Under the pieces are notes generated by a model. It worked only from the letters and a program-made list of their open reading frames with translations. It did no database searches and was not told where the DNA came from. From positions 1-64,000 of the forward strand of contig JAKEGJ010000029.1 of the NCBI GenBank assembly GCA_022627495.1: a stretch of 64,000 nt of DNA. Reading direction: 5' to 3'. Of this stretch, positions 37,158 through 37,475 are shown piece after piece (position 1 is the stretch's first letter; every line of letters begins with the position of its first letter). The stretch is from Microcaldota archaeon (lineage in GTDB: Archaea; Micrarchaeota; Micrarchaeia; Anstonellales; Bilamarchaeaceae). Position numbers and translations under genes: made by a program.

Positions 37158-37368
37158 GCAGGGGTTCGGGTGGAATTGCGTATTGCATCCGCCGCCCTCC
37201 TGCTGGGGTAAATCTCAGGAAGTTTGATAGAAAATTTACCCTTAGAATGACTGCGGGAAATTTTCTGCAGGGGTTGTAGCTGGCCGTTTTGCGGCCATCA
37301 AACCCCCTGGTCATATTCATTCGCAGGGGTTTGTGTGAACTCGCATTGCTCGTTCACAGCACCCCTGC
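37158..37368 (+). repeat. Three hairpin units beginning GCAGGGGTT (acceptor-stem-like), upstream of tRNA-Leu
   Basis: 37158-37203, 37267-37310 and 37323-37368; each starts GCAGGGGTT and closes on CCTGC/CCCCTG/CCCCTGC. Confidence 0.75.
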
Positions 37369-37391
37369 TACTGTGCGACATTTGTTTTCAC

Positions 37392-37475
37392 GCAGGGGTT
37401 GCCGAGTGGTCAAAGGCGCCAGGTTCAGGGCCTGGTCGGTTAGTCCGTTCAAGAGTTCAAATCTCTTCCCCTGCA
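37392..37475 (+). tRNA. tRNA-Leu (CAG)
   Basis: Acceptor GCAGGGG/CCCCTGC, anticodon arm CCAGG-TTCAGGG-CCTGG, long variable arm, T-arm AAGAG-TTCAAAT-CTCTT. Confidence 0.95.

Follow-up and report, generated by a model that had tools for sequence, protein, structure and literature searches.

REP/BIME systems with a Y1 (REP-associated) transposase combine a hairpin with a short conserved motif and occur in clustered copies, and in this they are like the arrays described here. The repetitive and double hairpin-forming elements in mitochondria of sponges and fungi are short, dispersed, variable hairpins scattered among related genomes (PMC2800124). Template switching is known to create hairpins and also to correct them; the stems that arise in this way are perfect from the start, and their numerous compensatory changes do not pass through G-U intermediates (PMC8794818). 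In archaea, integration involving SSV- and pNOB8-type integrases leaves tRNA fragments, so that a tRNA terminus recurs as a direct repeat next to the intact gene, as at tRNA-Thr of Caldiarchaeum (PMC3293823).

The window (the whole stretch analysed, 64,000 nt) lies on contig C29 of a Micrarchaeota metagenome-assembled genome, G000, a placement that rests on its closest named relatives. In it, the sequence GCAGGGGTT starts at 37158, 37267, 37323 and 37392, exactly where the initial annotation had placed it; the last copy is the 5′-end of tRNA-Leu(CAG). The parts of the tract follow each other in this order:

37122–37157, plus strand: putative promoter of tRNA-Leu together with the leader of its transcript (TCTTTTATTTGATTGCATATCCAATAGGAACTTCAC); a near-identical stretch lies 5′ of unit 1 in G009 and G008
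37158–37203, plus strand: fold-back unit 1, copying 9 nt of the tRNA-Leu 5′-end
37214–37266, plus strand: E2, a dispersed 53-nt element with a covarying 8-bp stem, abutting unit 2
37267–37310, plus strand: fold-back unit 2, copying 10 nt, its outermost pair mismatched
37311–37322, plus strand: spacer LD, 12 nt (TCATATTCATTC), similar to spacers in G002 and G004
37323–37368, plus strand: fold-back unit 3, its outer stem the same as the tRNA-Leu acceptor stem
37369–37391, plus strand: spacer LA, 23 nt (TACTGTGCGACATTTGTTTTCAC), abutting the tRNA 5′-end
37392–37475, plus strand: intact tRNA-Leu(CAG), 52.5 bits in Rfam

Each unit has the plan E-h-E′, where E duplicates the tRNA end, h is a hairpin that varies and E′ complements E; it is followed by a spacer of one of a few recurrent kinds, and the last spacer abuts the intact tRNA. 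Folding confirmed the three hairpins of 44–46 nt that had been reported 5′ of tRNA-Leu: unit 1 folds at −23.2 kcal/mol (z = −3.0 against dinucleotide shuffles), unit 2 at −22.5 kcal/mol (z = −2.7) and unit 3 at −24.9 kcal/mol (z = −4.7), and array and tRNA folded as one stretch (37158–37475) gave z = −6.2. The hairpin of unit 2, first read as 37268–37309, stands, with its extent better given as 37267–37310. Unit 3 does carry the complete 7-bp terminal stem of the real tRNA (GCAGGGG/CCCCTGC), while unit 1 has only the outer GCAGG/CCTGC plus GG/CC in common with it. The interior of unit 2, TTGTAGC-TGGCCG..CGGCCA-TCAAA, is shared with units at tRNA-Ser and at other tRNA-Leu genes. The 53-nt element and the conserved 23-nt spacer (37369–37391) were absent from the initial annotation.

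In G014, which has no array here, a stretch similar to 37122–37157 stands directly before the tRNA; in the window this promoter-like sequence comes before unit 1, the order that would result if the array had grown in the gap separating it from the tRNA. We take this stretch as the putative promoter of tRNA-Leu. As they sit behind it, 5′ arrays are probably transcribed, as chains of hairpins in the pre-tRNA leader.

Both flanks of 15 tRNA genes of G000 were searched for similar units, defined by a match to the first 8 nt of the tRNA end with at most one mismatch and by closure with the complement; the finder is a simple one. At least one fold-back unit was found beside 10 of the 15 genes. There were 14 closed units upstream (matching the tRNA 5′-end) and 10 downstream (matching the 3′-end), as compared with means of 4.0 and 2.2 when flanks were permuted among tRNAs (p = 0.00035 and 0.002); the summed count was reached in none of 20 000 permutations (p<5e-5). 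A tRNA-Ser starting with GCTGGGG is preceded by five units with GCTGGGG stems, the unit before tRNA-Leu(TAA) copies 15 nt of that gene, and units that copy the 3′-end stand in reverse downstream of genes for Gly, Lys, Ala, Asp, Asn, His and Trp. Hairpins of at least 8 bp, whose density the initial annotation had proposed to compare, occur at 2.9/kb in non-coding flanks of G000 tRNA loci versus 0.3/kb in other non-coding DNA. The three hairpins of the window are one example of a genome-wide pattern in which arms match the neighbouring tRNA and not others; the earlier observation was correct and understated.

Units were also present in G002, G004, G005, G009, G010, G013, G019, G022 and G027, all members of one family; G003 and G016, of the same genus, had none or nearly none at the best-scoring tRNAs sampled there (the relatives are draft genomes, sampled mainly at high-scoring tRNAs, and a few low-z hits of the unit finder in this survey and in the mismatch count given below are chance). 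Such dispersed hairpin copies, patchy among relatives, are what characterizes repetitive hairpin-forming elements. The arms follow the local tRNA: they read GCAGAGG in G002, as does the start of its own tRNA-Leu(CAG), and GCAGGGA in G004; at tRNA-His they read CATGGCC in G009 versus CGTGGCC in G000. At the orthologous glmU-tRNA-Leu(CAG) locus G002 and G005 have arrays, and G014 and G007 have none; hence arrays have been gained or lost at one locus, as seen between relatives rather than near-identical strains. The relative contig that is nearest by its rubrerythrin-like neighbour gene (L037) lacks a tRNA at that spot and so offers no empty site.

The copied end E is 7–18 nt long, with a longer duplication beside one Gly gene, and E′ does not stop at the acceptor stem: beyond position 7, 58 of 70 copied positions in 14 units were paired. 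In a real tRNA, positions past the acceptor stem are unpaired with the 3′ strand. The complement spans the entire copy, which makes each unit a folded-back tRNA end. Units on the 3′ side (L053) copy the T-arm half and fold back on this copy. The suggestion that the hairpins are acceptor-stem mimics therefore holds for the outer strand, which copies the tRNA end (the outer stem equals the adjacent tRNA's acceptor stem, in full at unit 3), but not for its partner, which complements the copy beyond that stem. This long complement speaks against simple mimicry of the acceptor stem, and so does the orientation of a conserved spacer, which depends on the tRNA end.

This spacer is LA. When its pattern was searched in 84 genomes of the order, 9 of 10 matches belonged to arrays at tRNA ends, each immediately ahead of a tRNA or of a unit's start; several loose matches (L215, L216) were chance hits in coding sequence, and a longer pattern left a single match outside arrays, in G037. 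LA reads forward at the 5′-ends of Leu, Ser and Met genes; at the 3′-ends of the Trp and Asn genes in G000 it is reversed. Its orientation thus follows the tRNA end and not transcription. Read in tRNA-end orientation, the 3′-end spacers of Trp, Asn and G009 Trp agree with the 5′-end consensus at 18–21 of 22–23 positions; read in transcript orientation, they agree at 7–9. The 3′-end spacers of Lys are weaker (11 and 13 of 22). A part serving the RNA should keep transcript orientation; LA keeps tRNA-end orientation instead.

A second spacer family, 3′ of tRNAs, is a palindrome with variable arms around GTTTCCAGTCCTGAGTTTTGCCTCA (L051, L055, L078, L080, L133, L135, L167). The core of this palindrome is similar to the CTGAGGTnTTnCCTC spacers found in 5′ arrays and, relative to the transcript, points the same way. 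E2 consists of CTCAnGAAGTTTGAT followed by an 8-bp stem, 98% paired and with 17 double changes over 27 copies. Among 59 relatives it is present only in genomes of the same family, in few copies per genome, and its copies immediately precede either a start codon (with GGAGG) or the 5′-end of a tRNA, or else lie inside tRNA introns (besides 37214–37266, examples are L024, L030, L034, L191, L200 and L213). E2 could form either of two overlapping pairings, AAGTTT with AAACTT or the 8-bp stem, but apparently not both together.

Some other features deserve mention. On the minus strand of the window, 29580–29755 resembles an intron-containing tRNA gene (GCCGCAG..CTGCGGC) that neither ARAGORN nor Rfam detected; hairpins lie 3′ of it at 29457–29478. 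At 63434–63585 an odd tRNA-like sequence ending in GGTTCGAATCTTCCCTCCTGCA, with several strong hairpins 5′ of it, is possibly a disrupted tRNA-Leu. Introns of G000 tRNAs (L056, L058, L061, L065) are made up of strong hairpins, for example CCGCCTTTTnnnAAAAGGCGG and, after it, CCCAAAAC. At G000:C22:22038-22385 (L237) there is a reading frame for a Y1 (IS200-like) transposase, with a single TGA inside it.

We explain the arrays, with a confidence that we would put at about even, as lineage-specific fold-back duplications of tRNA gene ends, built in DNA by snap-back or template-switch copying and tandem duplication. At a tRNA end the growing strand would snap back on itself and copy E into E′; copying would then resume upstream, leaving spacer and tRNA end duplicated. 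Repetition of such events, together with copying between tRNA loci, could produce the arrays and spread spacers and hairpins, while self-templated correction would keep the arms complementary. Arrays may be tolerated because the tRNA is intact and leader and trailer are removed during its maturation. Copying at the DNA level is supported by the match of arms to their own tRNA, the long complement, the varying copy length and the orientation of LA. It is supported as well by an array in G011 (E2-E-h-E′-short linker-E2-tRNA), in which the duplication takes in spacer and tRNA end, and by three tandem units before tRNA-Cys in G027, whose stems CACC/GGTG, AACG/CGTT and CGCC/GGCG are exchanged and still complementary. 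We also count in its favour the patchy arrays at glmU-tRNA-Leu, the concentration of hairpins at tRNA flanks and the equal rarity of two mismatches: read in transcript orientation, the best units have 3 G-T and 3 A-C among ∼240 Watson-Crick pairs, few mismatches in all. A plain inverted triplication (P′E to P′E-h-E′P-P′E) would fit some palindromic spacers (L050, L059) but not the duplication of E2 in G011; snap-back with tandem duplication was therefore preferred.

Two observations weigh against this explanation. Local template switching alone does not explain why spacers and unit interiors recur across tRNAs and genera; copying between loci or a mobile element is required. Furthermore, a sub-family of eight units combines covarying stems, outer and apical, with some constant bases in the loops; the unpaired TGTAGC and TCAAA are conserved as the stems vary, as expected of functional RNA.

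The first of these observations could point to a miniature mobile palindromic element that targets tRNA ends, with a recombinase or transposase inserting hairpin and spacer and duplicating the tRNA end. The spacer would always face the tRNA body. Because the two acceptor-stem arms in a tRNA gene are inverted repeats, a single target recognition could act at both ends. LA and unit interiors, common to tRNA loci and genera in tRNA-end orientation, would be accounted for, and duplicated tRNA ends round inserts are typical of archaeal integration into tRNA genes (PMC3293823). There are inserts in RNase P RNA too: within the genus this RNA varies from 201 to 418 nt by loop inserts (G000:C21:16191-16519; relatives L254-L263); the process that builds the arrays, by whichever mechanism, therefore probably acts on more than tRNA genes. 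One insert in the G000 RNase P RNA resembles the GTTTCC..GGAAAC spacer seen after tRNAs. Such an element would, however, be expected to duplicate a fixed length, and, if fixed itself, would not carry an E′ complementing the local tRNA at each locus. A Y1 transposase as the driver was rejected, being found in 5 of 17 genus genomes and in none of the array-bearing G002, G005 and G009; no enzyme could be assigned. We regard a mobile element as somewhat unlikely. The earlier idea that repeated integration had left remnants at the 5′-end of the tRNA came nearer than that of acceptor-stem mimics, with the reservations that both ends are affected and that repeat length varies.

The second observation could be read as a sign of selected RNA units, either leader and trailer minihelices cut by RNase P or tRNase Z, or decoys or folding guides for tRNA; this we consider decidedly unlikely. 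The 5′ arrays do sit behind a putative promoter, the outer stems follow each species' tRNA, and RNase P RNA was found in all 17 genus genomes (which led us to reject loss of RNase P as the cause of the odd leaders). Covariation in relatives, named earlier as a check, is indeed present in the unit stems. In selected RNA stems, G-U pairs are expected to be favoured; there is no wobble excess here, on the few mismatches available. Stem covariation alone is weak evidence of RNA function at these arrays, since a template switch corrects the two arms in a single step (PMC8794818). The complement extending past the acceptor stem also speaks against selected units, as do close relatives without an array at the same tRNA and the reverse complementation of LA between 5′- and 3′-ends, by which the resulting RNAs differ. 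The arrays might be a working system in which hairpins recopy the end of their own tRNA, either through an active mechanism directed at tRNA ends or through selection as processed minihelix RNAs that regulate or protect tRNA; we judge this unlikely.

Very improbable is the origin of units from decayed tandem tRNA genes, each copy reduced to its acceptor stem and the gap closed by a hairpin. A length of ∼45 nt, tRNA-like leaders and the longer partial copies at G009 tRNA-Gly(TCC) would agree with it; on the other hand, E′ complements E beyond position 7, as a tRNA 3′ strand would not, the 3′-side units copy the T-arm half and fold back on this copy, and intermediates with an anticodon arm were not seen among the units. 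Chance hairpins in GC-rich intergenic DNA have a negligible probability: single 8-bp hairpins are common in the window (17 versus 7–14 in shuffles), but the same kind of unit recurs at 10 of 15 tRNA genes and matches the neighbouring tRNA rather than the permuted ones, hairpins concentrate at tRNA flanks, and nearly all LA matches lie in arrays.

The arrays offer a natural, repeated case of hairpins with matching arms at defined places, the ends of tRNA genes, at many loci and in related genomes. They make it testable how new hairpins, and perhaps archaeal tRNA introns and split tRNAs, arise; they also indicate that strong stem covariation need not mean RNA function, as a process at the DNA level can keep arms complementary. 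Should the arrays prove to be processed into RNAs, these would form a new class of small RNAs linked to tRNAs.

The initial annotation knew of no described family with this layout, and our searches agree: in Rfam, permissive thresholds included, no family matches the units and only the tRNA reaches threshold, and in the literature searched we found no description of such arrays, though one may exist outside it. REP hairpins are not known to copy a neighbouring gene, and a Y1 transposase, as in REP/BIME systems, does not track the arrays here. Mitochondrial hairpin elements invade intergenic regions, whereas the archaeal arms match the end of the neighbouring tRNA (PMC2800124). Template-switch hairpins were inferred as single events in RNA genes; here we see tandem arrays, both tRNA ends and recurrent spacers (PMC8794818). 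Integration-derived fragments belong to kilobase inserts with a recombinase (PMC3293823); the arrays share the direct repeat of the tRNA end, but hairpin units of 50–100 nt without a gene take the place of an integrase or element between repeats, the repeats being a few tens of nt apart and units of 44–46 nt too short for an integrase gene. Fold-back arrays with arms matching the local tRNA at many loci are in none of the systems compared; by analogy, the arrays appear nearest to the mitochondrial elements in form (PMC2800124), to template-switch hairpins in process (PMC8794818) and to integration-derived tRNA fragments in place (PMC3293823).
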